This document shows, in pieces, positions 3,624 through 18,252 of a stretch of DNA of 64,000 nucleotides. This stretch comes from Synechococcus sp. NB0720_010. Lineage in GTDB: Bacteria > Cyanobacteriota > Cyanobacteriia > PCC-6307 > Cyanobiaceae. The stretch lies in contig NZ_CP090898.1 of NCBI RefSeq assembly GCF_023078835.1, forward strand, positions 1,738,045-1,802,044, read 5' to 3'. The notes beneath the pieces were generated by a model, which worked only from the letters and a program-made list of their open reading frames with translations, did not search any database and was not told the DNA's origin. Made by a program: the position numbers and the translations under genes. The number at the start of each line of letters is the position of its first letter. Position 1 is the first letter of the stretch.

Positions 3624-5362
3624 CAGTAGTGGTTCCCCACTTTGCGGTGGTGAACAGCCGTGCGCGCCTCGGTGTCAGAGACGTTGCCCTGCTCAACCTC
3701 GCCGTAGATGATCCAGTGGTCTGGGCCCTCCATCCGCTGGCTGACGCGGCAGCCGAGGAAGGCCAGGGCATCGCCCAGGACCGGTCCGCCGTTGGCGACG
3801 CCATCGAGGGTGTTGACCCCGGCAAAGCGATCGGCACCCGGTGGGAAGCGCTTGAGGAAGTGGCGCATCAGGTCCTGGTAGTTGTCCTCCCGCAGGATGT
3901 TCAGCACGAAGCGATCACCCACCTGCAGCAGCGCCTCGATGGCGCGGTCTTTGGCCACGGCCACGGTGATGCCGGGGGGATCAAAGCTGGCCTGGCTGAC
4001 CCAGCTGGCCACCATCGCTGAGGCCCTCTCGTCCTGGCGTGCGGTCACCACATAGAGACCGCCAGAGAGACGCCCGAGGGCCTTGTCCAGGTCGCCATCA
4101 AGGGACTTCATCGCGGCGATGGTCTTGGCCCGGGTCAGGAGTTGTCCGAGGTCCGTGCCGGCTTCCTCGCAGCGCTGGTAGTCGTTGCCGTCGGGAACCT
4201 GGCGCACCCGCAGGGGCTCGAAGGCTTCCTTCTGGCCCATGCTGCGTAGCTGCGTGGCAACAGCATCAATCGGTTCGTCGTTGCCGCCGTAGGCGTCGTA
4301 GCTGCCGATCCACTGCTTGGGTTTGAGGGCCGCCAGCAGGGTGCCGATGGAGGCCTGCAGCTCCGGGTCGGGGTTGGCCGGCCAGGTGGGAACCACAACG
4401 GCGCTGGCCTCGCCGATCAGGGCGCTGAGTTCCTGGGCGTCGGTGGCCCGCAGGTCCACCAGTTGCACCTGGGCTTCGGCTTTGCCAATGCCACGGGCGA
4501 TGGCCTGGCTGAGGCGGTCGCAGAAGCCGTATTGGCTCAGATAACAGACGGCGGCGTAGGCCTCGCCTTTGCTGCGGTCGCTGCTCCAGTCCTTGTAGTC
4601 CCCCATCCAGAGGTTGAGGTGGTGGCGCAGCAGCGGTCCGTGCCCGGTGGCAATGGTGTTGATGGTGCCCTCGAGGCCATCCATGCGCTTCATGGCCTGG
4701 AGGACGCTGCGGGCGTTGGGGCCCATCAGGCAGTCGTAATAGAAGCGGAAGTCGGGAGCGAGGGCGCCGGGGTCCACATCGAAGCTGTCCTCGGAGCAGT
4801 AGTGCATCCCGAAGGCATCGCAGGTGTAGAGGATCCCGGTGCCGTGGTCGAAGGAAAAGATCGTGTCCGGCCAGTGCAGGTTGGGGGCACTGAGGAACTC
4901 GATGCGGTGCTGAATGCCGCTCTCGGGGTTGGTGCCCAGGTCCAGTTCCTCGCCGCTTTTGACGGCCCGGCTCTTAAAGGGGCGATGCACCTGGTTCTCG
5001 AGGAACTGAATCGCCACCTTCGAACCCACGACCTCAATGTCCGGGTTGAGGTCAATGACGTGGCCGACTAGGCCGGAGTGGTCCGGTTCGGTGTGGCTGA
5101 CGATCAGCACGTCGATGGCCTTGGGATCGATTTGCTCCTTGAGGAGCTCGAGCCAGATCCCTTCGAACTTGAGGTGGCTGGTGTCGATCAGGGCGGTGCG
5201 CTCACCGCGCACCAGAAAGCTGTTGTAGGTGGTGCCGTTGCGCAGGCCGAACTCAATGTCGAAGCGGCTGCGGTCCCAGTCCAACGAGCGGATGGTGCTG
5301 GTGTCCTTGGCGATGGCCTCGCACTGCAGGCTGAGCCGGGGCGTGCTTGCAACGACAGCCAT
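3623..5362 (-). CDS. flv3: Flavodiiron protein Flv3 (catalytic-type subunit)
   Basis: The partner of Flv1 in NAD(P)H- or ferredoxin-driven reduction of O2 to water, a safety valve under fluctuating light. The 579-residue protein has the diiron, flavodoxin (about 265-410) and flavin reductase (about 425-579) domains of class C flavodiiron proteins. The iron ligands are present: H90-T-E92-P-D94-H95, H163 in NLHWPD, D182 in TCDAFG and H241 in ATGHGP. It is first in a two-gene unit with flv1. Start ATG 5362 lies after a 146 bp gap that contains the hsp20 terminator, so it should have its own promoter. Confidence 0.94.
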   Translation of the reverse strand: MAVVASTPRLSLQCEAIAKDTSTIRSLDWDRSRFDIEFGLRNGTTYNSFLVRGERTALIDTSHLKFEGIWLELLKEQIDPKAIDVLIVSHTEPDHSGLVGHVIDLNPDIEVVGSKVAIQFLENQVHRPFKSRAVKSGEELDLGTNPESGIQHRIEFLSAPNLHWPDTIFSFDHGTGILYTCDAFGMHYCSEDSFDVDPGALAPDFRFYYDCLMGPNARSVLQAMKRMDGLEGTINTIATGHGPLLRHHLNLWMGDYKDWSSDRSKGEAYAAVCYLSQYGFCDRLSQAIARGIGKAEAQVQLVDLRATDAQELSALIGEASAVVVPTWPANPDPELQASIGTLLAALKPKQWIGSYDAYGGNDEPIDAVATQLRSMGQKEAFEPLRVRQVPDGNDYQRCEEAGTDLGQLLTRAKTIAAMKSLDGDLDKALGRLSGGLYVVTARQDERASAMVASWVSQASFDPPGITVAVAKDRAIEALLQVGDRFVLNILREDNYQDLMRHFLKRFPPGADRFAGVNTLDGVANGGPVLGDALAFLGCRVSQRMEGPDHWIIYGEVEQGNVSDTEARTAVHHRKVGNHY

Positions 5363-5439
5363 GGGATCACCAGGTGGGCAGCTGAACTCTACGGAGCTTC
5401 TCTGGAGAGCTGGCTGATCCAGCCATCCCTTCCAGTCAC

Positions 5440-5467
5440 AAAAAAGCCCTGGCTTGCGGCCAGGGCT
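5440..5467 (-). terminator. Rho-independent terminator of hsp20
   Basis: Perfect 9-bp stem AGCCCTGGC (5445-5453) / GCCAGGGCT (5459-5467) with a 5-base loop. Read on the minus strand it is followed by a run of six T (5445-5440). It sits about 40 bases after the hsp20 stop codon. Confidence 0.85.
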
Positions 5468-5508
5468 GGGTCCCGTCTCTCTCTGGTTGGTGTGATCGTT
5501 CTGGTCGC

Positions 5509-5904
5509 TTAGCCCTCCACCTTCACCGAGACGGTGCTCATGGTTTGGGCCTTCGGCGCCGTGACCAGCAGCAGGCCATCGCGGTAGTGGGCTTCGAGGC
5601 CCTCCCGCTCGATGCCGGAGGGGAAGCGGAAGCTGCGGCTCCAGGTGCCATAGCGGAATTCGCTCAGGAGCGGCGCTTGGGCCTCGGCGGCCTCCTCGGG
5701 GGCAAGGCGCTCGGCGCTGATGACGAGGGTGCGATCGGTGGCTTTGACATCGATCGAGTCGCGCTTCACGCCCGGCAGTTCCAGGGTGATGGCGAAGCCA
5801 GCCTCGGTTTCACGCACTTCGGCGGCGGGCACGCGCTCGGCGGTGTGCAGTTGCTGCTCGAGTTGTTCGAACAGATCAAAGGGTGATTGGCGCAGGGTCA
5901 GCAT
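5509..5904 (-). CDS. Small heat shock protein, Hsp20/alpha-crystallin family
   Basis: An ATP-independent holdase chaperone that binds unfolding proteins and, in cyanobacteria, also protects thylakoid membranes. The 131-residue protein starts LTLRQSPFDLFEQLEQQL, followed by an alpha-crystallin domain: VRETEAGFAITLELPGVK near 29-46, the TLVISAERLAPEE strand, GTWSRSFRFPSGI and the closing DGLLLVTAPK motif. The start ATG 5904 is chosen because it has GGAGG seven bases upstream and begins the conserved N-terminus; an in-frame upstream start at 6015 would only add an unrelated tail. No CIRCE inverted repeat was seen upstream, so HrcA control is not supported. Confidence 0.93.
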   Translation of the reverse strand: MLTLRQSPFDLFEQLEQQLHTAERVPAAEVRETEAGFAITLELPGVKRDSIDVKATDRTLVISAERLAPEEAAEAQAPLLSEFRYGTWSRSFRFPSGIEREGLEAHYRDGLLLVTAPKAQTMSTVSVKVEG

Positions 5905-6066
5905 GGCTGTTCCTCCAAGACTTGACTGGGCGGGGTGATGACCCGCAACGCCAATGTGGCTCCGCTGAATGACAACCAAGAGGGCGCAAACCGACCCTTT
6001 CAGTACGGCCCTCACCCCTCGGGTTCGGTTGCTACACCTTGGTTTTCGTAGGAGCCGAACCGCCCC

Positions 6067-6546
6067 TTAGAGCCACCACCAGTCGCTGAAGGCCGCGGCT
6101 TGACCGCAGGGCCGCCCATCGGCGTCCTGGAGGCACCAGAGCCGGGCGTTGTGGATCTGAAAGCGCCGGCCGCTGCGGCTGATGCGGATGCCGCTGTACC
6201 CCTCGATCGCTTGTTGGCTCAAGGCCTGCTGCAGCGCCAGCGCGCGGCTTTGGCGCTCCTGCGGTTCAGCGGTCAGTCGCGAGGGCATGCCGACCATGGC
6301 ACTCCAGGGGCGCTCCCAGAGCTGCAGGGCTGCTGCGTTGGCGTAGGTCAGGCAGGGGTCGCTGCTGCCGTCATGGGCTAGGACGACGAGATCGGCTGAG
6401 AAGAGTTCCTGGGCCGACGCTGCCAGGGGCCGGCCAAAGGCTTGGTGGTGGGATCGCAGCAGTTGCTGGGCCAGTTGGCGTTTGCCAGGGGTAAGCCAGG
6501 GGGCCGGCGCCTGCTCGAGTTGTGGTCGCTGATCGCTCAGGGACAC
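6067..6546 (-). CDS. MEKHLA domain protein (PAS-like)
   Basis: The 159-residue product has the MEKHLA fold features: a helical front (LLRSHHQAFGRPL), then YANAAALQLWERPWSAMVGMPSRLTAEPQERQ, then a PAS-like beta section ending IHNARLWCLQDADGRPCGQAAAFSDW. In plants the domain closes class III HD-ZIP transcription factors; stand-alone cyanobacterial forms have no proven role, and small-molecule or redox sensing is only an inference. I place the start at GTG 6546, two bases after the SWIM gene stop (TGAGGTG), which makes the two genes a coupled unit. Confidence 0.85.
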   Translation of the reverse strand: MSLSDQRPQLEQAPAPWLTPGKRQLAQQLLRSHHQAFGRPLAASAQELFSADLVVLAHDGSSDPCLTYANAAALQLWERPWSAMVGMPSRLTAEPQERQSRALALQQALSQQAIEGYSGIRISRSGRRFQIHNARLWCLQDADGRPCGQAAAFSDWWWL

Positions 6547-6547
6547 C

Positions 6548-7468
6548 TCAGTCGTCTTGCTTGCTGCCGGCAGCCATGGCGGTGGCCATGGCCGTGGCAC
6601 TGAAGCTGGCGCCCTGGGCCTTGAGGTGCTCGACGAATTGCTTGCCGGCCTCCGGGAAGCGGCCGTCCTCCGCCAGGGGGATGGCTCCGGCTTCATCCAG
6701 GCCGGTGTCCCCCTCCATGGCCGGGGTGATGACCACCAGGCCGGGGTCGAGGGCGGCTCCGTAGCGCCACCAGCGTTTGGGCTCGCGGATGGAGATGGGC
6801 GCGGGGTGCAGTTGGGGCGCATTGGCCTGCTCTGCGTCGGGGTTGGCCTTGGCCTCCTTGGCTTTCTTGGCCAGCAGGGCCCGGCGCTTGACCGCCAGGT
6901 CGCTGAGCAGCTGGGCGCGGGTCCGGCCCCGAAGCTGGAAGAGGACGAAGGGGTCTTCGCTGAAGCGCTCCCCCATCAGGTAGTAGACGGCGCTGACGTG
7001 CTTGCAGGGGTTGACCTTGTCCGGGCAGGTGCACTCGCTGCGCACCTCCTGCAACTTGAAGGGAAAGAGCCGCTTGCCGCTGGCGGCGAAGGCGCGCTCG
7101 ATGTCCTGGGGCATGACCCCGGCCAGCAGCTGGGCGGACCAGCGGGCCTTTTGACCGAGGGCCTCGAGGACGTAGTTCCAGTCCTCGTCGTTGAGGACAT
7201 CGAGCCAGAGTTTCACCTTGTAGGGGTCCTCGCCGCTGCCCTGCACCCGGGCGTGCACACGGCGCCCCTCAAAGCGAATGGAGAGGACGTTGCCCTCGCG
7301 GGCATAGGCCCAGGCCCGCTCCAGGCGTTTCTTGAAGCGGTAGCCGTTGATCAGCTCCATCCACTGCTCAACCCACCAGGGCTGCTGGCTCAGGCCCTCA
7401 TCGCCGAGCTGGGTGGTGATGCCGTTGGAGGGGGAGGTGAAGGTCACAAAAGATGAGCGAAGGCTCAA
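6548..7468 (-). CDS. SWIM zinc finger domain protein
   Basis: The 306-residue protein carries a SWIM zinc site C146-x-C148-x6-C155-x-H157 (CTCPDKVNPCKH) after a mixed alpha/beta N-terminal region that includes RFKKRLERAWAYAREGNVLSI. SWIM domains bind DNA or proteins and in bacteria are commonly encoded beside SNF2-family helicases, acting as their accessory subunit. Here the SNF2 gene lies on the same strand but 4.5 kb upstream, separated by a glycosylation block. The C-terminal third has a lysine/alanine-rich helix (about 197-215) and a poorly conserved tail. The stop TGA is followed at once by the MEKHLA start. Confidence 0.9.
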   Translation of the reverse strand: MSLRSSFVTFTSPSNGITTQLGDEGLSQQPWWVEQWMELINGYRFKKRLERAWAYAREGNVLSIRFEGRRVHARVQGSGEDPYKVKLWLDVLNDEDWNYVLEALGQKARWSAQLLAGVMPQDIERAFAASGKRLFPFKLQEVRSECTCPDKVNPCKHVSAVYYLMGERFSEDPFVLFQLRGRTRAQLLSDLAVKRRALLAKKAKEAKANPDAEQANAPQLHPAPISIREPKRWWRYGAALDPGLVVITPAMEGDTGLDEAGAIPLAEDGRFPEAGKQFVEHLKAQGASFSATAMATAMAAGSKQDD

Positions 7469-7569
7469 AGAAAGGTTAACGCGCGACTATTCATTTGAAA
7501 TTCCCTCTAAGCATGGGATAGATCCAGGCTTTTCTGCGGTTTTATTTTTTCTGATCTATTTTCTTCAAC
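7469..7569. promoter_or_regulatory. AT-rich divergent intergenic region at the island edge
   Basis: A 101 bp gap between the divergent SWIM and FkbM genes. Composition changes abruptly here from the G+C-rich backbone to long A/T tracts (for example around 7540-7567). It can hold the promoter of the plus-strand FkbM gene, but I see no convincing -35/-10 pair, tRNA fragment or repeat that would mark an integration site. Confidence 0.4.
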
Positions 7570-8412
7570 ATGGGGCGATTTCAGCGGATCCAGACTTGGA
7601 ACCTCACGGATGATACTGATTTGCAGTCAACATTGCCGGTACCCACTGGTCGCACAACGCAAGTGGCATTTGCCAGGTCAGGTTTTAAAAGTGCTGTAAT
7701 TCAAAAGATCGCTAAGATCGCAAATGTCTACCAGTTTGTTGATGTAGGCGCAAATCTTGGTCAGACAATGCTCGAGGTTTTCTCGAGTAATAACAACATT
7801 GAGTATTTTGGTTTTGAGCCAAATCCACAAGCATTTTCATGCCTGCAAGAGCTCGCCGCAACAATAAAAGTCAATGCTAATCTGTTCCCTTGGGCTTGTG
7901 GTACTGATTGCAGTCCAGCCAGCTTTTATAGCTCTTCAATTGAAGACTGCAGCGCGACCCTGCTCCCTGAGATACGCCCTGATACGTATTTAAAATCTAA
8001 GCCAACACATATCGCAAGCTATCCACTCGATATTTCTCTAAAGTCTCATCAACTCTCCTCATGCTTTATAATGAAAGTGGACGTAGAAGGTTTTGAGAAT
8101 GAAGTCTTGTCCGGCGCTGAAAATTTAATAGCGGCAAAAAGACCATTTATCTTTTGTGAAGTATTGCATGCTCATCGTGACTCGGAAATAGGACTAAATA
8201 ATGCACGCAAGGCATTGTTAGAGTCTTTTCTTGTGGGTGTTAACTACAGTATTTTTCAGATTCACCTCTCTGCAAGCGATCGCAATACTTTTCAAGGGTT
8301 AAACAAAATCAAGACTCTCCCAAAAAATCTGCTTTGGAAGAGCGCTCCACACACCTGTGATTTCATGTTCGTACCAAGTGAGCTTGAAGAAGGTCTACTT
8401 GCTTCAATTTAG
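7570..8412 (+). CDS. FkbM family SAM-dependent methyltransferase
   Basis: FkbM-type O-methyltransferases modify sugars of polysaccharides and natural products. The 280-residue protein has the SAM-binding motif VDVGANLG (57-64), the acidic-end strand FGFEPN (80-85) and the family motif MKVDVEGFENEVLSGA (about 167-182) followed by FIFCEVL. It is the only plus-strand gene of the AT-richer block and ends four bases before the stop of the convergent methyltransferase gene. ATG 7570 has no clear ribosome site, so the start is moderately sure. Its codon use, rich in A/T third positions, differs from the flanking genes and suggests transfer. Confidence 0.9.
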   Translation: MGRFQRIQTWNLTDDTDLQSTLPVPTGRTTQVAFARSGFKSAVIQKIAKIANVYQFVDVGANLGQTMLEVFSSNNNIEYFGFEPNPQAFSCLQELAATIKVNANLFPWACGTDCSPASFYSSSIEDCSATLLPEIRPDTYLKSKPTHIASYPLDISLKSHQLSSCFIMKVDVEGFENEVLSGAENLIAAKRPFIFCEVLHAHRDSEIGLNNARKALLESFLVGVNYSIFQIHLSASDRNTFQGLNKIKTLPKNLLWKSAPHTCDFMFVPSELEEGLLASI

Positions 8413-8416
8413 ATGT

Positions 8417-9052
8417 CTACTTTTGCTGGTAGACAGAGGTTTTGATATTCCCTCCAAAGCCATAGTAATTTAAAGTTTCTTTGTACAAAGTAAGATTGTG
8501 CTTGAATCCTTTTTGAGTGATGTCAACACCGCTCTTTAGCGAAAGTCGCGTGTGTGGTGTACCCGACTCAATATCTAAGTTCGCGACAAACTTATCAGAT
8601 GGAATATGTTCTGTAATTGCCACAAAACTAGACACGCCGTCCAAATTTGACAGAATCTTCTGGATGTCACTATTTGACAAGTGCTGAAACACCTGACGGA
8701 TGAAAATTATATCGCACTCTTCCGGGATAAACGTTCTTGCATCAGCACAAACAAAAGTAACTCCATTTTGAATGAATGAATTACGACAGTAGTCGATGAC
8801 TTTCTGCGATATATCTATGGCCATGATAGATTTGCACTTTGGTGCTATTTTCGAACCGATATTAAAATCGCCACATCCTAAGTCAACTGCATTACATACT
8901 CCAGAAAGTCTTTCCGATTCTAGAAAAGCTCCGACTGTATCAATATATGCATTGACAAGTGGTTCATGCCAAGAACCTGGACCAGAACTTAGCTGTTTTC
9001 CCCAGAGACCATTAGCATAGATTTGGTCGAAGCGATTGGCTAAATCACTCAT
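8417..9052 (-). CDS. Class I SAM-dependent methyltransferase
   Basis: The 211-residue protein has motif I AVDLGCGDFNIGS (about 55-67), then IMAIDISQKVIDYC with the ribose-binding Asp, and CDIIFIRQVFQHL in the motif IV position. The substrate is not predictable; the surrounding glycosyltransferases suggest a sugar or a glycan intermediate. Its start overlaps the stop of the upstream methyltransferase (ATGA, 9049-9052), so the two are translationally coupled. Base composition is AT-rich like the rest of the block. Confidence 0.88.
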   Translation of the reverse strand: MSDLANRFDQIYANGLWGKQLSSGPGSWHEPLVNAYIDTVGAFLESERLSGVCNAVDLGCGDFNIGSKIAPKCKSIMAIDISQKVIDYCRNSFIQNGVTFVCADARTFIPEECDIIFIRQVFQHLSNSDIQKILSNLDGVSSFVAITEHIPSDKFVANLDIESGTPHTRLSLKSGVDITQKGFKHNLTLYKETLNYYGFGGNIKTSVYQQK

Positions 9053-9615
9053 GCTTTAACAGCTCGAAGAACAAATGACTGGCCACCAATAATGTTATTG
9101 AATAAATACGCGTACGAGTCAAGCTTTCCTGGGTCAAAGCTACCTAGAACATTCTTGATGTGGTTAGCACAGTCAGGATCAATATAGCTCTGAGATGAAA
9201 TAATGCGAAAATCGACATCGTATATTAAGGCCAAAGGTGTTTTGGCATCACCTTGTTGAATGAGTCTCTTGCAAAATTCCTTGTCTAGCATTTCTAGACC
9301 TTCACGGTCAATCGATTTCTGGTGCGTGAAATCGACAATCTGCCAACGGTGGAATGGGTGAGGGCATAAGACCTTTAGCTCGCCCTGGTCTTTCATTATT
9401 CGATAGATCTCTTTTAATATTCGAAAGAAATCATTCGGACGAGCAGGGAGATGTTCAAGAACTGAATTCATTATTATTTCATCAATAGATGATGACTTGA
9501 AAGGGTAAGGTGTGTTTTCTAGGTTTAAGAGCAAATCTGGCTCACAATGCTCTGATTGATCAATGTTGACATAGCCTCTTAGTTTCTTGTTCCCGCAGCC
9601 AAGGTTAAGCTTCAT
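9049..9615 (-). CDS. SAM-dependent methyltransferase (methyltransferase 11-like)
   Basis: The 188-residue protein begins directly with the SAM-binding motif KLNLGCGNKKLRGYVNID (2-19), a layout common in small methyltransferases of surface-polysaccharide clusters, and continues with IDEIIMNSVLEHLPA. The truncated N-terminus is normal for this type and not a sign of damage. It lies three bases after the GT32-like gene and overlaps the next methyltransferase gene by four bases, so it belongs to the minus-strand operon of the block. Confidence 0.87.
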   Translation of the reverse strand: MKLNLGCGNKKLRGYVNIDQSEHCEPDLLLNLENTPYPFKSSSIDEIIMNSVLEHLPARPNDFFRILKEIYRIMKDQGELKVLCPHPFHRWQIVDFTHQKSIDREGLEMLDKEFCKRLIQQGDAKTPLALIYDVDFRIISSQSYIDPDCANHIKNVLGSFDPGKLDSYAYLFNNIIGGQSFVLRAVKA

Positions 9616-9618
9616 TTT

Positions 9619-10482
9619 TTAATCTCTTTGCTCTGTCATCATCATTTTAATCGCTTTATCTGGCTGTGCGCTAGGGCTAGCATCGTCTTGGGCCAGGACT
9701 AGGGGGGTATTTTTGCGTGAGTAGTGATTAATCATGTATTGGCAGTTTCTGTGAGTGTCAGAGCTTGTTGTAGTGGATACATTTAAGGGGTCAAGTAGAT
9801 ACTCTCGATCTTCGAAGATGGAGTAGACCAATCCCTCTTGATGGGGCATGATCACACGATAGCTCTTATTGCTAATTAGCGATTTTTGATTGATGTAGTC
9901 TTGGATTGCTCTCGAATAGGCTATCGGGCCAGTGAGCTCTAAAACAGCCATCCTTCCAAATGTGTGTTTTGACCATCTGGGGAATTCAAGAATATTACGT
10001 GTCACAGCTTTAATAGCAGATTCAAGAAACGGATGTCTTGGTCGGCCAATAATAAACCACTGTTGATATTCTCCGCCTTTGATGTCGTTCACCTGCTGGT
10101 GGAGACCCCATCCAGCATGTGGCTCTTGTGCACCGTTGTCCCACTGCCCGAGTATGTATTCATCACCCTTTCGGACTAAGTCTCTTAAAGGAACTTTTGA
10201 TGTGGACTTGATGTCCAGATACATTCCTCCAAACTTATATATTAAGCAGTAGCGAACTAGATCGGCTCGTGCCGCGCCGTAGTCGGGATTAAGCCTCTTG
10301 TATGCTTCGTATACGCGTCCAGGGTAGTACTTGCCTAAGAACGAGTCGCAATCGTTGTCGCTCAAGCAACTGTATTCCCACTCGGAATTGCGCTGCAGCA
10401 GAGACTCTCTCTCTTGTCTGACTAAGTCAATTGACTGATGTTCGGCAGAGCAGGTTGAAAACAGAAGATAGGGGATATTCAT
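9619..10482 (-). CDS. GT32-like glycosyltransferase (DXD sugar-binding region)
   Basis: The 287-residue protein resembles capsular polysaccharide and OCH1-type GT32 enzymes: IPYLLFST near the start, NPDYGAARADLVRYCLIYKFGGMYLDIKS at about 65-93, and a conserved HAGWG patch. The metal-binding DXD position reads D90-I-K92 instead of D-x-D, a variation I recall in some relatives. The start at ATG 10482 begins the conserved MNIPYLLF strand and avoids a 47-base overlap that the upstream in-frame codon at 10545 would make with the twin GT2 gene. It probably transfers a nucleotide-sugar residue onto a surface glycan. Confidence 0.82.
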   Translation of the reverse strand: MNIPYLLFSTCSAEHQSIDLVRQERESLLQRNSEWEYSCLSDNDCDSFLGKYYPGRVYEAYKRLNPDYGAARADLVRYCLIYKFGGMYLDIKSTSKVPLRDLVRKGDEYILGQWDNGAQEPHAGWGLHQQVNDIKGGEYQQWFIIGRPRHPFLESAIKAVTRNILEFPRWSKHTFGRMAVLELTGPIAYSRAIQDYINQKSLISNKSYRVIMPHQEGLVYSIFEDREYLLDPLNVSTTTSSDTHRNCQYMINHYSRKNTPLVLAQDDASPSAQPDKAIKMMMTEQRD

Positions 10483-10498
10483 TGATGATCCGAGTGTC

Positions 10499-11959
10499 TC
10501 ACATGAAAAAATCGTCGAGCACTCTTGTGACTTCTGCAGAATCAACCTTTCGCATTCTTGGAGTTTCTCCCTGTTTTCTCATCTGCTTTTTGTCAAAGGT
10601 GTTTGACTCATGTGAAATGCAGATCATTGTCTTCTCAGGAGCAAGTTGCGCCATTGGAATTGTGTAGTTGTTTAGGAACTCTTTCTCTTCATTGCATGAT
10701 GACTCGTTGTCATAAAAATGGCTTTGAGCAAACCTTCTGGTCATCGCAAATGTTCCTGCTGTGGCGTGGTTTGCGCCAAATGGACCAGAGAGCCAGAGCG
10801 TCCTGTCATGTAAGAAATAAATCAGTAGAGATGTGCTTCCAGCAAGTTCTTTGCCTTCTTGGATGAGGCGCTCGATTGCATGTCTGACTCTTTGGGGATG
10901 ATAAAAGTCGTCATCATCCATGTAGACTATGTAGTCGTGGCTGCAAAGCTTGTGAGCAACATTCCGCTTCTTGCCCAGTTGCATTTTTTGCTTCACCCTC
11001 TGGTACTTAATCTTGATTCCAGTTGTACTCGTAAGTGTAAGGTTGTGTTTGTACTCACTGGAATCGTCCAGTATCAGCCATTCAATCTTTTCCGGTGGAT
11101 AGTCCTGTGCCTCCACGCATTTCTGGAGTCGCCTAACATGCGACTCTCTGTTGTGAGTCAATGTGCATATTGATACGGTAGGCAAGTCCTTTTCGGCTGT
11201 TTTTCTTTTGTGCTGATCTGGAAATAGCTTGCTGTGCAGGGGTTTGGGAATAATGTAATTAGGGAAGCATCTCGAAGTGTTTCCGCGGTGAATTATGTGC
11301 AGGCAAATGCCAGATCCATCTTGAGTTAGATGTATTTTTTTCTTGGCGGCAATGAGTTGTTCGACAAATATTGTGTCCTCTCCAATATCTCTATCCGGGA
11401 AAGATGACCCAGTCCAGCAGTCTTTTTTGTAAAAGTAGCTGAATCCATAGCCTGTTAAGAAAGATCTGAGGGCGTTTTTGGTGAAAGTGTCCTTTTTGTT
11501 TTGGACATCTTCTGTTCCGCAAAAAATATGATGTGCAGACTTGAAGTCGGTTGTATCCCAGAAGCCGAGAGTGTTGCTTTCTTGGTGGAGTGCAAACCAG
11601 CCGCCAAGTTTCACAAAGTCGGCATGGTTGCTTTGCATTTCCCCATGCATCCAGCTGAGGTAGTTCGGCGCGTAGTAATCGTCGTCGTCGAAATGCGCAA
11701 TGATTTCGCCTGTGCTTTCGCTGACAAGTGCATTTCTCTTGGTGCCAATGCTCAGCTTCTGGCTTCGATGCCAGTATTTGACGTCGCTGTGGCTTTTTGC
11801 GAGATCCTTGAAGTTTTCGTCTTCTTGCTCGCTGTCATCGAGTACAAGGAGTTCTTTGTTTGGCCATGTTTGATTTCTGTACAGCTCAAGGAGCTGTGGA
11901 AGAAATGAAGCCCTATTCCGCGTCGGCACGATGACGGAAATCTTGGGCATCTCGGTCAT
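10499..11959 (-). CDS. Twin-domain family 2 glycosyltransferase
   Basis: The 486-residue protein holds two complete GT-A domains in tandem. Domain 1 starts ISVIVPTRNRASFLPQLL (about 7-24) with the metal motif AHFDDDDYYAP (DDDD 91-94). Domain 2 starts TVSICTLTHNRESHVRRL (about 258) with VYMDDDDFYHP near 347. Such twin GT2 enzymes often build glycans with alternating or paired sugars. It is the first gene of the minus-strand island operon, 30 bases after the SNF2 stop, with a strong AGGAGG site eight bases before ATG 11959. AT-rich codon use sets it apart from the SNF2 gene next to it. Confidence 0.9.
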   Translation of the reverse strand: MTEMPKISVIVPTRNRASFLPQLLELYRNQTWPNKELLVLDDSEQEDENFKDLAKSHSDVKYWHRSQKLSIGTKRNALVSESTGEIIAHFDDDDYYAPNYLSWMHGEMQSNHADFVKLGGWFALHQESNTLGFWDTTDFKSAHHIFCGTEDVQNKKDTFTKNALRSFLTGYGFSYFYKKDCWTGSSFPDRDIGEDTIFVEQLIAAKKKIHLTQDGSGICLHIIHRGNTSRCFPNYIIPKPLHSKLFPDQHKRKTAEKDLPTVSICTLTHNRESHVRRLQKCVEAQDYPPEKIEWLILDDSSEYKHNLTLTSTTGIKIKYQRVKQKMQLGKKRNVAHKLCSHDYIVYMDDDDFYHPQRVRHAIERLIQEGKELAGSTSLLIYFLHDRTLWLSGPFGANHATAGTFAMTRRFAQSHFYDNESSCNEEKEFLNNYTIPMAQLAPEKTMICISHESNTFDKKQMRKQGETPRMRKVDSAEVTRVLDDFFM

Positions 11960-11989
11960 GGGGCGTTCCTCCTGGCTACTCGCCTGCAG

Positions 11990-14900
11990 TTAGTCATCAC
12001 TGAGGGTGACGAGTTCTTTGAGTTGGCTTACGTCCATGCCGCCGAGCCAATCCTCACCGGAGCCAACGATGTCTTCGGCGAGTTTGGACTTCTCCTTGAT
12101 CATTCGGTCGATGCGCTCTTCGACTGAGCCACTGGTGATGAACTTGTGCACCATCACCCGGTTCTGCTGGCCGATCCGGTAGGCGCGGTCTGTGGCCTGG
12201 TTCTCCACGGCGGGGTTCCACCAGCGGTCGATGTGGAACACGTGGCTGGCCCGGGTCAGGTTCAGGCCGACGCCGCCGGCCTTGAGGGACAGCAGGAACA
12301 GTTGCGGGCCGCGGGGGTCGTCCTGGAAGCGGTCGACCATGGCCTGGCGTTCGGTCTTGCTGGTGCTGCCGTAGAGGAAGGGCACCTCTTGGCGCCACTT
12401 GTGCTCGAGATGGGCCTTGAGCAGATGGCCCCATTCGGCGAATTGGGTGAAGAGCAGGGCCCGATCGCCCGCTTCCATCACCTCCTCGAGGATTTCCTCC
12501 AGCCGCTGCACCTTGGCGCTACGGGCAGCGAACTCCTTGAAGAAGCTGGCATCCGCGTCGGCTGGGTCCTGCTTGAGGGCCAGGGCCGGGTGGTTGCAGA
12601 TCTGCTTGAGCTTGGTGAGCAGCGCCAGCACCTGACCGTGCTTCTGGCCCAGGGGCGACCGGGCGATGGCATCGAGGCTCTCGTCCACGGTCTTGGAGTA
12701 GAGCTTCTTCTGCTCGGGGGCCAGGCCCACCCATTCGCTCAGTTCCACCTTCTCGGGCAGGTCGGAAATGATCGATTTGTCGGTCTTCAGGCGGCGCAGG
12801 ATGAAGGGGCCGACGCGGCCCTTGAGGTCCCGCAGCGAGGACATGTCGCCGTAGCGCTCGATCGGCATCCGGTAGCGCTGGCGGAAGAAGGGCTCATCGC
12901 CGAGCACCTTGGGGTTAAGGAAGTCCATCAGGGCCCAGAGCTCGCTCACCCGGTTCTCCACCGGTGTGCCGGTCAGGGCGATGCGGAAGCGGGGACCCTT
13001 GCCGGGGCGCCCCATGTCCCGGGCAGCCATGGACTGCTTGGCGGCGTGGTTCTTGATCGCCTGGGCTTCATCGATCACGACCCCCTGCCAATCGACCTTG
13101 TCCAGCAGTTCGCTGTCCCGCTGCAGCAGGCCGTAGGTGGTCAGCACCAGGTCCACACCCTTCAGCGCTTTTTTCAGGGCCTCGGGGCTGGAGGGGCGGC
13201 GGGGTCCGTAGTGCTCGTTGACCGTCAGATCTGGGGTGAAGGCGGCGGCTTCCCGCTTCCAGTTGGTCAGCACCGAGGTGGGAGCGACCAGGAGCACCGG
13301 GCGTTTGAGCTCCTCTTCAGCCTTGAGGTGCTGCAGGAAGGCCAAGAGTTGGATCGTTTTACCCAGACCCATGTCATCGGCCAGGCAGGCGCCCTGATCG
13401 AAGCGATGCAGGAAGGCCAGCCAGCCCAGACCGCGCTCCTGATAGGGCCGCAGTTGTCCGGCGAACCCAGGGGGCGCTGGCAGGGGATCGGGGGCTTTCT
13501 GCTGGTGGTACTGCTCCAGCACCGCCTGCAGGCGGGGCCCGGCCGTGAAGGCATGGACCGGCAAGCGGGAGAGGGTCTCCCCTTCATTGCCCGTGATCCG
13601 CAGGGCGTCATCGAGGCTGAAGGGGGGCTCAGCGGAGCAGAACTTCTCGGCGTTCTTGAGGTCCAGGGGCCGCAGTTCGATCCAGGCCCCCTTGTGCTGC
13701 ACCAGCGGGCTGCGCTTGGCCGAGAGCTTCTCGAGGTCCTTCAGGTTCAACGTGACCCCGCCGATCATGAATTCCCAGCGCCACTCCAGGGTTTCCCCGA
13801 GAGTGAAGCCGCGGGACTTCTCGGGCAGCTCGGCGGTGATGGCCAGGCCCAGGCGGCTGGCCAGGCCACCGGAGAGGCTCGCGGGGAGCACCACCCCGAC
13901 GCCCACATCCCGCAGGCGGGAAGCGGCGGTCCGCACCAGGACGAAGGCCTCCGCGGGGGTGAGCTGCATCGCCTCAGGGGTGGCGGCATCCAGGCCCCGC
14001 TCAAGAGGCTCAAAGGCCAAGAGGGCGCGGCCCAGACCCTCCAGCAGGAGCGCTCCGGGCTGCTCCAGTTGGATCTCACCCAGGGCCAGGTTGCTGTCCC
14101 CTGCGGCCCAGACCAGTCCAGCGGGCACCCGCAGGCTGGGGTCGGCTTCCGCCTGGAGGCCGAATTTCAGTTCCCAGAGTTCCTCCCCTTCCGGCGGCGT
14201 GAACAGCTCCAGGCAGGCCCGGGCGGGAGCCACCTTGCCGGCGACGGTCTCGCGCCAGTGGTTGCTTGCGCCGCAGAGGCGCTCTTGCTCCTCTTCATCG
14301 AGTTTGAGCTTGCCGTCGCGGCTGGCCAGGCCGTCTTCCCAGGCAGACAGCAGTGGATCGAGGCCGGCTGCACCGGGTTGGAAGGCTTCGCGTAGCTGGC
14401 CGTCCACCAGCTTGTCGACGATGCTCGCCACCAGCAGCCGGTTGGAGCGGGGGCGGCCGCAGGCCAACTGGGGATCTGGGCTGGAGGCCGCCACCACCTG
14501 GGGCATGCGCAAGGCCAGCTCCTCGAGCCGGCGGCGGTCGTCCTCACGGTTCAGCAGCGGGCGCCAGCTGGCCTTGCCATCCGCGCTCTCGGGTAGCCAG
14601 CGGCCCCGGGCGATCAGGCTGAGGCACCAGCGCTGGACGTGGCACCACCAGAGCAGGTCATCACCCAGTCCGGCCTCGTAGGCCCCCGAGAGGGGCAGTT
14701 GATTGAGCCAGGCGGCAGCGGGGCCCGGTTTGAGGAACCAGCCCTCGACTTGCCAGGGCCACCAGCTCAGATCCTTCGGCAGCGGTTCTCCTGATTGCAG
14801 CGGCAGGCCGCTCCAGGCACTGGATTCGCTGCTCTTTTGTCCTTTGCTCAGTTGCTGCCGGCTCGGCAGGGTCAGGGTGACGGTGGCCTGGCGCAGGTCC

Positions 14901-15109
14901 TCGGACCAGAAGTTGTTCTCGTCCAGCCAGGTGGCCAGATCGTCCAGATCCAGGCTGAGGGGGTGGAACGGCGCCTCAGCTGCCGGACTGAGCGGTTCGG
15001 CCACGCGCCAGGTGTCCGCCCAGATCAACAGGCCGGCTGTAGGCGCCTTGCCTTTGGCGAAGCTCCCCGCCGGAACGACGGGCAGCCAGGTGGCATGCAG
15101 CAGGCTCAT
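11990..15109 (-). CDS. SNF2/Rad54-family DNA helicase-like ATPase
   Basis: A 1039-residue double-stranded-DNA translocase. The N-terminal half (about 1-550) is the SNF2-associated helicase domain seen in bacterial and cyanobacterial members. The motor follows: Walker A DDMGLGKTIQ (about 578-588), DEAQ box VVIDEAQAIKN (about 682), IALTGTPVENR, and the C-terminal helicase lobe with GGVGLNL and HIDRWWNPAVENQATDRAYRIGQ (about 950-975). Bacterial members are thought to help RNA polymerase recycling or DNA repair; which applies here is not shown. It is usually paired with a SWIM protein, which here lies beyond the AT-rich block. Confidence 0.95.
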   Translation of the reverse strand: MSLLHATWLPVVPAGSFAKGKAPTAGLLIWADTWRVAEPLSPAAEAPFHPLSLDLDDLATWLDENNFWSEDLRQATVTLTLPSRQQLSKGQKSSESSAWSGLPLQSGEPLPKDLSWWPWQVEGWFLKPGPAAAWLNQLPLSGAYEAGLGDDLLWWCHVQRWCLSLIARGRWLPESADGKASWRPLLNREDDRRRLEELALRMPQVVAASSPDPQLACGRPRSNRLLVASIVDKLVDGQLREAFQPGAAGLDPLLSAWEDGLASRDGKLKLDEEEQERLCGASNHWRETVAGKVAPARACLELFTPPEGEELWELKFGLQAEADPSLRVPAGLVWAAGDSNLALGEIQLEQPGALLLEGLGRALLAFEPLERGLDAATPEAMQLTPAEAFVLVRTAASRLRDVGVGVVLPASLSGGLASRLGLAITAELPEKSRGFTLGETLEWRWEFMIGGVTLNLKDLEKLSAKRSPLVQHKGAWIELRPLDLKNAEKFCSAEPPFSLDDALRITGNEGETLSRLPVHAFTAGPRLQAVLEQYHQQKAPDPLPAPPGFAGQLRPYQERGLGWLAFLHRFDQGACLADDMGLGKTIQLLAFLQHLKAEEELKRPVLLVAPTSVLTNWKREAAAFTPDLTVNEHYGPRRPSSPEALKKALKGVDLVLTTYGLLQRDSELLDKVDWQGVVIDEAQAIKNHAAKQSMAARDMGRPGKGPRFRIALTGTPVENRVSELWALMDFLNPKVLGDEPFFRQRYRMPIERYGDMSSLRDLKGRVGPFILRRLKTDKSIISDLPEKVELSEWVGLAPEQKKLYSKTVDESLDAIARSPLGQKHGQVLALLTKLKQICNHPALALKQDPADADASFFKEFAARSAKVQRLEEILEEVMEAGDRALLFTQFAEWGHLLKAHLEHKWRQEVPFLYGSTSKTERQAMVDRFQDDPRGPQLFLLSLKAGGVGLNLTRASHVFHIDRWWNPAVENQATDRAYRIGQQNRVMVHKFITSGSVEERIDRMIKEKSKLAEDIVGSGEDWLGGMDVSQLKELVTLSDD

Positions 15110-15127
15110 GGAGGCGGGGCCTGGGGA

Positions 15128-15574
15128 TCAGGGGCGCCGCTGGATCGGTTCAACCCGAGTCACGACAAGTCGCGATAGGGCCATCGATCCGTGCAACACC
15201 AGCGCGGCGCCGATCAGCGGCAACCAAGCACGAATGAACCCCATCATCACAGTTGGAGCGACCTGAGCCAAGCTCTCGGGCCAAGGTTCCTCCAGCGGCC
15301 AGGGCAAAAGGGCCGGTAGGCCCAGGCTGTGGATGCCGCAGACGGCCCCCACCAGGCCCGCCTGCAGGTGGCCGTCATCGGGGTCCACCCGCTGCAGGTG
15401 GAAGGCCAGCAGGCCATAGAAAAAGCCGCAGCCCCCGGCCCGGAGGGCTGACTCCAGTCCCAGGGGCAGGCCCAGGGTCAGTGCGCTGAAACCCGCACCG
15501 AGGGCCCAGGCGATGGAGCGCAGCCGCAGTTCGGCCCGGCTGTGCTCAGCGGTGGCGGGGGAGGCGGCGCTCAT
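15128..15574 (-). CDS. Small integral membrane protein, unknown function
   Basis: The 148-residue protein has several hydrophobic segments, at about 24-42, 48-62, 74-92 and 110-135, so three or four membrane spans are likely. I do not recognise a family; the acidic loop [13 protein letters not shown] and the [13 protein letters not shown] loop are the only polar landmarks. It is 18 bases upstream of the SNF2 gene on the same strand and could be cotranscribed with it. It is divergent from alaS, with an intergenic gap of only about 40 bp if the inner alaS start is used. Confidence 0.7.
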
Positions 15575-15615
15575 GCTGCGCGATCATGCCCGGTTCAGGC
15601 TCGTTTTGCTTCGCC

Positions 15616-18252
15616 ATGGCCGCCGCTCCCCGCACTGGTGCTGAGATCCGTGCGGCCTTTCTCGACTTCTACGAGCAGCGGGGCCACAAGCCGATGGCCA
15701 GTGCCTCCCTGGTGCCGGAGGACCCGACGGTTCTGCTGACCATCGCCGGGATGCTGCCGTTTAAGCCGGTCTTCCTGGGGCAGCAGCCCCGCCCGTCGGC
15801 CCGTGCGACCAGCAGCCAGAAGTGCATTCGCACCAACGACATCGAAAACGTGGGCCGCACGGCCCGGCACCACACGTTCTTCGAGATGCTCGGGAACTTC
15901 TCCTTTGGTGACTACTTCAAGGAGCAAGCGATCCAGTGGGCCTGGGAGCTGAGCACCACGGTCTTCGGCATCAGCCCCAAGAACCTGGTGGTCAGCGTCT
16001 TCCGCGAGGACGACGAAGCCGAGGCGATCTGGCGCGATGTGGTGGGGGTGAACCCCAAGCGGATCATCCGCATGGATGAAGCCGACAACTTCTGGGCCTC
16101 GGGCCCCACGGGCCCCTGCGGTCCCTGCTCGGAGATCTATTACGACTTCAAGCCCGAACTGGGCGATGAGGGCATCGACCTCGAGGACGACAGCCGCTTC
16201 ATCGAGTTCTACAACTTGGTGTTCATGCAGTACAACCGCGACGCGGAGGGCAACCTCACGCCGCTGGAGAACCGCAACATCGACACCGGGATGGGCCTCG
16301 AGCGGATGGCCCAGATCCTGCAGAAGGTTCCGAACAACTACGAGACCGACCTGATCTATCCGCTGATTGAGACGGCAGCTGGTCTCGCTGGGGTCGACTA
16401 CCGGCAACTCGATGCCAAGGGTCAGACGTCTCTGAAGGTGATCGGGGACCACAGCCGGGCGGTGACCCAGCTGATCTGTGATGGCGTCAACGCCAGCAAC
16501 CTGGGGCGCGGTTACATCCTGCGCCGCCTGCTCCGTCGCGTGGTCCGCCACGGACGTCTCCTGGGGATCGACAAGCCCTTCCTGACGGCGATGGGTGAGG
16601 CGTCGATTGCCCTGATGCAGTCGGCCTATCCCCAGCTGCTGGAGCGTCAGGAGGTGATCCTCTCGGAGCTCAAGCGCGAAGAAGCACGCTTTCTGGAGAC
16701 CCTGGAGCGGGGCGAGAAGCTGCTGGCGGATGTCCTGGCGGCCAAGCCCAAGCAGATCTCAGGGGAGCAGGCCTTTGAGCTCTACGACACCTACGGCTTC
16801 CCCCTGGAGTTGACCCAGGAGATCGCCGAGGAGCATGGCCTCGCGGTGGATCTGGACGGCTTTGAGCAGGCCATGGAGGCCCAGCGCCAGCGGGCGAAGG
16901 CCGCCGCCGTCAGCATTGACTTGACCCTGCAGGACGCCATTGATCAGATGGCCGCCGATTTGGAGGCCACTCGCTTTCGGGGGTACGAGTTGCTGGACCA
17001 CAGCAGCAGCGTTCAGGCGCTGGTGGTCAACGGTGAGCCGGCGGAGCGGGCCGAGGCTGGCGACAGTGTGCAGCTGGTGCTCGACACCACCCCCTTCTAT
17101 GGCGAAGGCGGCGGTCAGGTGGGCGACCGCGGCGTGCTGAGCGGTGACGGCTTGATCGTCGCGATTGAGGCGGTGAGCCGAAACCGCAGCGTCTTTGTCC
17201 ATAGCGGCCGGGTGGAGCGCGGCAGCGTGAGCGTCGGCGATGTGGTCCATGGCCAGGTGGATCGGACCTGCCGCCGGCGGGCTCAGGCGAACCACACGGC
17301 GACCCACCTGTTGCAGTCGGCGCTGAAGCAGGTGGTTGATCCGGGGATTGGCCAGGCCGGTTCCCTGGTGGATTTCGATCGCCTGCGCTTTGACTTCCAC
17401 TGCCCCCGGGCGATTACGGCTGCTGAACTCGAGCAGATCGAGACCTTGATCAACGGCTGGATCGCCGAGGCCCATAGCCTCGAGGTGCAGGAGATGGCGA
17501 TCGAGAAGGCCAAGGCCGCCGGTGCGGTGGCGATGTTCGGGGAGAAATACGCCGATGTGGTCCGGGTCGTCGATGTTCCCGGGGTCTCGATGGAGCTCTG
17601 CGGCGGCACCCACGTCAGCAACACCGCTGAGATTGGCCTGTTCAAGATCGTCAGCGAAAGCGGCGTGGCCGCGGGCATCCGCCGCATCGAGGCCGTGGCG
17701 GGTGCGGCGGTGCTCGCTTACCTCAATGAGCGCGATGCGGTGGTGAAGCAACTCGGCGAGCGCTTCAAGGCCCAGCCGGCGGAAATCGTCGATCGCGTCC
17801 TGACCCTGCAGAGCGAACTGAAGGCCAGCCAGAAGGCCCTGGCCTCGGCCCGTGAGGAGCTGGCACTCGCGAAATCGGCGGCCTTGGCGAGCCAAGCCGA
17901 AGCGATCGGCGACTTCCAGGTGCTGATCAGCCGTCTGGATGGCGTCGAAGGCGGCGGCCTGCAGAGCGCCGCCCAGGGGCTGGTGGATCAGCTGGGCGAT
18001 GGTGCGGCCGTGGTCTTAGGCGGTCTCCCGGATCCCTCGGATCTGGGCAAGGTGATCCTGGTGGCGGCCTTCGGCAAGGGCGTGATCGCCAAGGGTCAGC
18101 AGGCCGGCAAGTTCATCGGTGCTGTGGCTAAGGCCTGCGGCGGCGGCGGCGGCGGCCGGCCCAACCTGGCGCAAGCCGGTGGCCGCGACGGTGCAGCCCT
18201 GGATGCCGCGTTGGAGCAGGCCAAAGGCGAGCTGACTGCAGCCCTGGGCTGA
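15616..18252 (+). CDS. alaS: Alanine-tRNA ligase
   Basis: Charges tRNA-Ala and edits mischarged Ser/Gly. From ATG 15616 the protein is 878 residues, normal for the family. It has the class II catalytic core from [21 protein letters not shown] onward, the editing domain with HTATH (about 560-564) and the distal CGGTH, and the C-terminal DHHA1 domain with the glycine cluster [17 protein letters not shown] that binds the tRNA elbow. An in-frame ATG at 15586 would add ten residues unlike the family N-terminus, so I chose 15616; no clear ribosome site decides it. Confidence 0.97.

Follow-up and report, generated by a model that had tools for sequence, protein, structure and literature searches.

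The genome of Synechococcus sp. NB0720_010, a single contig of 2,410,448 bases, carries an AT-rich block of five genes between a gene for an SNF2 helicase and a gene for a SWIM zinc-finger protein. We describe it as it appears in a window of 64,000 nucleotides, the whole stretch of DNA that was analysed (bases 1,738,045-1,802,044 of the genome), in whose coordinates positions are given (Table 1). The five genes encode three methyltransferases, a sugar transferase resembling those of glycosyltransferase family 32 (GT32-like) and an enzyme with two glycosyltransferase family 2 domains (twin GT2), and a MEKHLA-domain gene lies beyond SWIM; the families are those named in the original prediction. 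We consider it likely that the block is a horizontally acquired islet for surface-glycan synthesis and methylation, inserted at the SNF2-SWIM junction on the source genome's own branch, and that this junction is a labile slot.

The edges of the block coincide with the stop codon of SNF2 (11990-11992) and the start codon of SWIM, a GTG ending at 7447, and the block, about 4.5 kb long, occupies exactly the gap between them. Changes of composition had been placed at about 7.47 and 11.96 kb; they are indeed sharp, but the exact limits are now refined to 7448-11989. The five genes do not all share one strand, as had been supposed. The gene for the FkbM-family methyltransferase is on the plus strand, and only the other four (twin GT2, GT32-like and two methyltransferases) form a minus-strand unit, which starts 30 nucleotides (nt) past the SNF2 stop codon and whose genes overlap or sit a few bases apart. 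The FkbM gene is convergent with the Methyltransf_25 gene of this unit, the two meeting at 8412/8417, and divergent from SWIM.

Table 1. Features of the block and its flanks (aa, amino acids; ORF, open reading frame; SAM, S-adenosylmethionine)
Feature	Position	Strand	Basis
MEKHLA-domain gene, downstream of SWIM	6067-6480	-	PF08670 E 1.6e-44, residues 116-250 of a 251-aa ORF
SWIM zinc-finger gene, 299 aa, start GTG (ATG in relatives)	6548-7447	-	PF04434 E 3.6e-5; start alignment with G017, G007, G014
Inserted AT-rich block, SWIM start codon to SNF2 stop codon	7448-11989		G+C and empty site in relatives
AT-rich spacer, 122 nt, between divergent SWIM and FkbM genes	7448-7569		sequence
FkbM-family methyltransferase, 280 aa	7570-8412	+	PF05050 E 1.4e-13; TIGR01444 70.9 bits, cut-off 37.7
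Class I SAM methyltransferase (Methyltransf_25), 211 aa	8417-9052	-	PF13649 E 1.3e-11
Small methyltransferase (Methyltransf_11), 188 aa	9049-9615	-	PF08241 E 4.9e-6
GT32/OCH1-like sugar transferase ORF, 308 aa from TTG	9619-10545	-	PF04488 E 5.5e-9
Twin GT2 glycosyltransferase, 486 aa, DDDD stretch per domain	10499-11959	-	PF00535 E 7.2e-37, two stretches
Leader, 30 nt, SNF2 stop to GT2 start, G+C-rich, with AGGAGG	11960-11989	-	sequence
SNF2 helicase gene, 1039 aa	11990-15109	-	PF00176 E 1.3e-64, PF12419 E 4.2e-31

The G+C content of 7469-11989 is 0.435, compared with 0.663 for 3000-7468 and 0.665 for 11990-16500, and the profile falls from about 0.66 to 0.39-0.47 across most of the interval from 7.5 to 11.9 kb. 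In a sample of 464 kb of the source genome, made up of the window and 20 further stretches of 20 kb, the lowest G+C among 1,499 segments of 4.5 kb is that of the segment starting at 7501. For tetranucleotide distance, only one of 260 such segments reaches the value of the block, and it is again the segment at 7501, which overlaps the block. G+C at third codon positions (GC3) is 0.37-0.52 in the five block genes, whose overall G+C is 0.40-0.45, compared with 0.84-0.91 in SNF2, SWIM, alaS and two flavoprotein genes. A codon-adaptation-like value is 0.19-0.27 in the block genes and 0.65-0.75 in those five neighbours, the neighbours' values having been calculated on the reference genes themselves. 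The block is thus unlike its host in composition and codon use, as an islet should be, and the compositional shift first noticed in the sequence holds in these tests, the profile differing from that of the flanks. The same sample contains two more AT-rich stretches (L067 10751-20000 and L071 13501-20000), with 4.5-kb minima of 0.476 and 0.453.

Empty and filled SNF2-SWIM junctions in relatives

Relatives are coded G001-G024 where they belong to the same genus and by other G numbers where they belong to the same family. In the nearest relatives, G017, G007 and G014, the SNF2 stop codon is followed by 4 nt and then the SWIM ATG, and the same arrangement is found in 12 of the 12 genus genomes whose junction is empty (these three with G010, G021, G002, G016, G015, G022, G009, G005 and G006). 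The window retains both the SNF2 stop codon and the coding sequence of SWIM, start codon onwards, with the block replacing the 4 nt. On a tree of SNF2 and SWIM proteins (34 rows, built by a quick method with only Shimodaira-Hasegawa-like approximate likelihood ratio test (SH-aLRT) supports, G010 and G024 contributing few columns), the window genome is nested in a set of four and in a set of six, both with an SH-aLRT of 100; the branching order within the set of four is not resolved. Since the window genome sits in a supported clade whose five other members are all empty, a gain on the source genome's branch is the simplest reading. Insertion into an ancestral SNF2-SWIM pair had been the central proposal, and the empty sites of the genus, with those of the clade-mates among them, bear it out. 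Neither of the outcomes that the original prediction named against itself, relatives lacking both the block and the SNF2-SWIM adjacency, or a flank-like composition, was found.

The two flanking genes are usually adjacent, as had been stated: of 117 family genomes that have the two on a single contig and strand, 78 show a distance of less than 150 bp. Among the other 39, all at 150 bp or more, the distance is 150-2,000 bp in 33, 2-14 kb in five and 503 kb in one, G046. This sample was drawn from the 150 genomes listed of the 175 and of the 172 with a match, 136 being in both lists, and leaves out 16 genomes with the genes on different contigs and three with them on opposite strands. Within the genus, the junction measures at least 150 bp in nine of 21 measurable genomes (eight of 20 without the window). 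The remaining four of the 25 could not be measured: in G001 the genes are on different contigs, G004 meets a contig end, and G011 and G023 gave no SWIM match. The group of SNF2, SWIM and MEKHLA is therefore looser than had been implied. At least six changes between the empty and filled states are needed on the tree, and the junction is a labile slot with repeated gene gain and loss in the family.

How does this junction compare with others nearby? None reaches 150 bp between alaS and a 148-aa gene (0/14), between the latter and SNF2 (0/15) or between SWIM and MEKHLA (0/19). From MEKHLA to a small heat-shock gene the usual distance is 158-171 bp, exceeded in one of 14 genomes (G004, 1,453 bp), and from the heat-shock gene to the flavoprotein genes it is 118-227 bp in 14 genomes. 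The flavoprotein pair, however, is separated by at least 150 bp in three of 14 (two by more than 5 kb, one by 167 bp), which tells against a special status for SNF2-SWIM: the flavoprotein junction is filled too, and the slot is therefore not unique. The contrast is clear against the first three junctions and not against the flavoprotein pair, in a comparison that started from a junction picked because of its insert and whose rows, sharing ancestry, count genomes and not independent events. In five flavoprotein rows (G013, G014, G002, G015 and G022) the stretch contained a single gene of the pair, and these rows were dropped; other stretches served to re-measure G002 and G015, and likewise G019 and G001, and for G005 and G006 the SNF2-SWIM distance comes from a separate run from the other junctions.

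The flavoprotein junctions of G002 (L096 3778-10060) and G015 (L098 10000-15152) hold AT-rich elements, placed at the stop/start overlap of the pair, that encode a tyrosine recombinase of about 490-500 aa (PF00589). The G002 element has CACTACT at both ends. At the equivalent position in the window, near 3623, the flavoprotein pair is intact. Like the window block, these elements are AT-rich, lie at the stop/start boundary of adjacent co-directional genes and occur in the same genus; unlike it, they carry their own recombinase.

The contents of 41 filled slots besides that of the window (37 from the family sample and those of G012, G024, G018 and G003) were read by tblastn, with queries taken partly from the slots themselves (G109, G013, G041, G213, G106, G019 and G188), so that those rows match by construction. 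Homologues of both HepT and MNT are found in 10 of the 41 and an MNT match alone in two; in G109 the pair is identified by Pfam, with a HEPN gene (PF08780) adjoining the MNT gene as in HEPN-MNT systems. A 290-aa protein without a Pfam family occurs in six slots and a fatty-acid desaturase in seven, on the opposite strand where this was read (G213); the G106 slot holds GNAT and TMEM175-like genes. Another 14 slots have no match to these queries. Among them are a slot with the remnant of a pair (G024), two that each carry a ceramidase-like gene (G053 and G094), one encoding a ferredoxin/lactamase-fold protein (G074) and one in which transporter-like and pentapeptide genes are found (G003).

The slot of G019 (L099 1591-15395), one of the 10 with both HepT and MNT homologues, spans 13.8 kb and carries HsdM, HsdS, an HsdR-like protein, an SMC-type ATPase and a HepT-MNT pair, a type I restriction-modification set among them. 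That of G188 (L100 5219-9075), from another genus, is a second AT-rich insert of 3.9 kb, with a G+C of 0.45 and two CsgG-like genes.

HEPN-MNT toxin-antitoxin pairs are a known system (PMC3710099, PMC7641770, in the passages cited), which in relatives occupies this same slot but is not part of the window block; its genes are unrelated to those of the block and have a host-like G+C. In the slots that were read the HEPN gene comes first, whereas the cited passages of PMC3710099 have MNT almost always first. In G013, G012 and G008 the HepT start codon lies 4 nt past the SNF2 stop codon, just where SWIM starts in the empty genomes. Read by eye, the HepT-like proteins of the G012 and G008 slots (L027, L028) seem to be without the R-x4-6-H motif, as if the toxin were inactive; the motif is present in the HepT proteins of G013 and G018 (RNLMTH, RNLMAH).

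Origin and route of entry

Homologues of the block proteins are thinly scattered. The twin GT2 is matched at E 1e-20 in four of 201 family genomes, its own included, the best other at 53% identity over half its length (G046), and at E 1e-40 in two of 386 phylum genomes, again with its own. At E 1e-10 the FkbM protein is matched in seven of the 201 (best other 47%, in G129) and the GT32-like protein in 11 (best other 40%), both counts including the source genome. None of these three proteins found a match in the 10 other genus genomes of that sample, the two smaller methyltransferases having been left out of these searches. This sparse presence speaks for acquisition. In G046, G085 and G098 the relatives of the twin GT2 are large and match a sulfotransferase domain as well (in G085 below the curated cut-off), as would be expected of surface-glycan enzymes. 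In G046 (L114) the homologue lies inside an AT-rich ORF of 1,240 aa with the sulfotransferase domain; transposase-like ORFs, judged by eye, surround it.

Several results weigh against an acquired surface-glycan islet. There is no sign of a conserved cluster: the neighbourhoods of nine homologue loci gave no other block gene apart from one match in a Xanthomonadales metagenome-assembled genome (MAG), weak and at 25%, to the Methyltransf_25 protein. No donor emerged: the block gave no blastn match to phages, and its protein matches are all below 60% identity. Domain and PHROGs searches found no mobility gene or recombinase domain among the five genes, there is no transfer RNA (tRNA) gene in 1-24000, and no long flanking repeat is among the repeat families listed (direct, 20 of 33; inverted, 25 of 32). 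Finally, the GT32-like protein shows no canonical DXD, having YLDIK at the motif. The block is thus without the integrase, tRNA gene and flanking repeats that mark many islets, though not every islet has them, and without the recombinase and defined ends of a site-specific mobile element.

Particular sources were tried and set aside. The twin GT2 found five phage records at 24-33% identity and FkbM two records of one Caulobacter phage; IMG/VR pattern scans, able to find only close relatives, confirmed none for the three block proteins, out of five, that were scanned. The PHROGs matches are to generic methyltransferase and glycosyltransferase families and to one of unknown function. For plasmids, 90 records match the twin GT2, all below 60% identity, and the search for a named donor genome gave only three MAG loci, at 41-44% identity. 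We infer that the DNA came in by natural transformation or by transduction and was then integrated by illegitimate recombination.

FkbM, on the plus strand, and the four genes on the minus strand may instead have arrived independently, in two acquisitions. They face each other as convergent units, and in G129 the homologue of FkbM is not beside homologues of other block genes; G+C and GC3 are, however, alike in all five genes, and we regard a double origin as unlikely, if worth bearing in mind. More doubtful still is that the block is the cargo of a tyrosine-recombinase-type site-specific element whose recombinase has since been lost. Two genus relatives do carry AT-rich PF00589 elements at another tight junction, roughly 4 kb distant and on the same side of the operon, one with a heptamer at both ends, but these elements are at the flavoprotein pair and not at SNF2-SWIM, and the block has no recombinase domain, tRNA gene or end repeat among those listed. 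The sole shared end sequence seen is TGACC, which follows the first base of the start codon in both the twin GT2 gene and SWIM; at five bases it is too short to interpret.

That the block is ancestral, the empty sites being derived by loss, is very improbable. Loss at the junction does occur: G024 keeps a remnant of the HepT-MNT pair found in the near-identical G018, and G020 retains the MNT part only. Yet the window genome lies within a clade of six in which five are empty with no scar seen, each loss would need to restore an identical 4-nt spacer, the codon use of the block is foreign, and its glycosyltransferase and FkbM genes found no match in the 10 other genus genomes sampled. An artefact of assembly or contamination, which the sharp compositional edges might suggest, is hardly credible for one contig of 2.41 Mb, estimated to be 99.99% complete and 0.02% contaminated, in which the edges fall exactly on gene boundaries, the flanking genes are intact and all five block reading frames are open.

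Gene products, expression and meaning of the islet

The predicted FkbM methyltransferase scores above both its Pfam and NCBIfam cut-offs. For the twin GT2, PF00535 reaches 127.3 bits (curated cut-off 23.3) and an acidic DDDD is present in both halves, as in GT2 enzymes; a single-sequence structure model was unusable (mean predicted local distance difference test score, pLDDT, 37.9). The GT32-like protein scores 37 bits against PF04488, above the curated cut-off of 23, and its D-x-K is common to seven distant homologues (34-40% identity); the missing DXD would therefore be a subfamily trait, and we call the protein GT32-like. Its gene may in fact start at an ATG near 10482.

Among the flanking genes, a TTG at 7468 is probably not the native start of SWIM, because relatives start SWIM at an ATG aligned with the GTG ending at 7447. 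A longer MEKHLA ORF, 6067-6822, overlaps SWIM in another frame, and its N-terminal part is probably not real. A role of SNF2 in a defence system was considered and set aside; the protein matches the ZorD, DpdE and DrmD models in their helicase half and does not reach the NCBIfam cut-offs, which we take as similarity of a generic SNF2 kind.

The gene layout suggests how the islet might be expressed. Five AT-rich genes were inserted into a compact operon, in the few bases that separate the SNF2 stop from the SWIM start. The first of the four on the minus strand, the twin GT2, has its own AGGAGG just ahead of the ATG; these four would most likely be read with SNF2, and the layout allows them to use the SNF2 promoter, as had been suggested. 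In consensus scans, whose sites were no more numerous than in shuffled sequence, the 30-nt SNF2-GT2 gap had no minus-strand terminator-like or promoter-like site and the spacer 7448-7569 no promoter-like site; a weak minus-strand terminator-like hairpin at 7454-7467 in the spacer is not above chance. A copy of the leader from elsewhere in the host was discounted, its first 28 nt occurring only here among 25 genus genomes at up to three mismatches.

FkbM would need its own promoter in the AT-rich spacer. SWIM, cut off from SNF2, would have to start separately in the same 122 nt, read-through into it being unlikely because the FkbM gene is opposed. As far as can be told, SWIM is still under purifying selection: over 297 codons the window side has 21 synonymous and three nonsynonymous changes and the G017 side 11 and three, a pattern that also covers the period preceding the insertion.

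The 3' end of SNF2 may itself contribute. Its last codons contain GAGG in 17 of 20 genus relatives (all but G017, G018 and G024) and GATG in the window, and the encoded C-terminus is SED in most relatives and SDD in the window. As a ribosome site the GAGG is suggestive only, and it may simply reflect Glu-Asp codons. Its decay was rejected as proof of relaxed selection, a single lineage being unable to separate decay from drift. We can imagine, as a speculation with rather long chances, a 'cargo bay' at the 3' end of SNF2 throughout the family: genes starting right behind the stop codon would be translated from the built-in GAGG and co-expressed with the helicase, and strains would swap toxin-antitoxin, restriction, lipid and surface-sugar genes there under selection, not at random. 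The window's bay would have been taken by a glycosyltransferase operon with its own AGGAGG, after which GAGG decayed to GATG.

What might the islet do? Its glycosyltransferases probably assemble or branch a sugar chain at the cell surface, whose sugars the methyltransferases would cap, so that phages and grazers would meet an altered surface. The insertion, its exact place, the foreign composition and the repeated filling of the junction are shown by the data, and the enzyme classes are predicted from sequence; a surface-glycan role, an ecological benefit and co-transcription of the block genes we infer. Surface-glycan islets are a kind already known in picocyanobacteria. In the islands of marine Synechococcus, as given in the cited part of PMC2441476, the predominant known gene category is glycosyltransferases and glycoside hydrolases, and glycosyltransferase variation is discussed as viral evasion for an Antarctic Synechococcus-like cyanobacterium in the cited part of PMC9716671. 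Compared with the glycosyltransferase-rich islands of marine Synechococcus and Prochlorococcus, as these appear in the cited parts of PMC2441476 and PMC7522525, the window block is small (4.5 kb), defined exactly by an empty site and situated within a compact operon of conserved genes. Open-licence literature yielded no publication on the SNF2-SWIM junction, which is weak evidence of absence.

The block is a clean, base-exact case of a putative surface-sugar islet in a compact operon; the closest relatives show the empty site, and the junction lets gain and loss be counted across a whole cyanobacterial family. If it is true that the slot is favoured for its built-in expression, this would link the turnover of gene content to operon translation in an ecologically important group.

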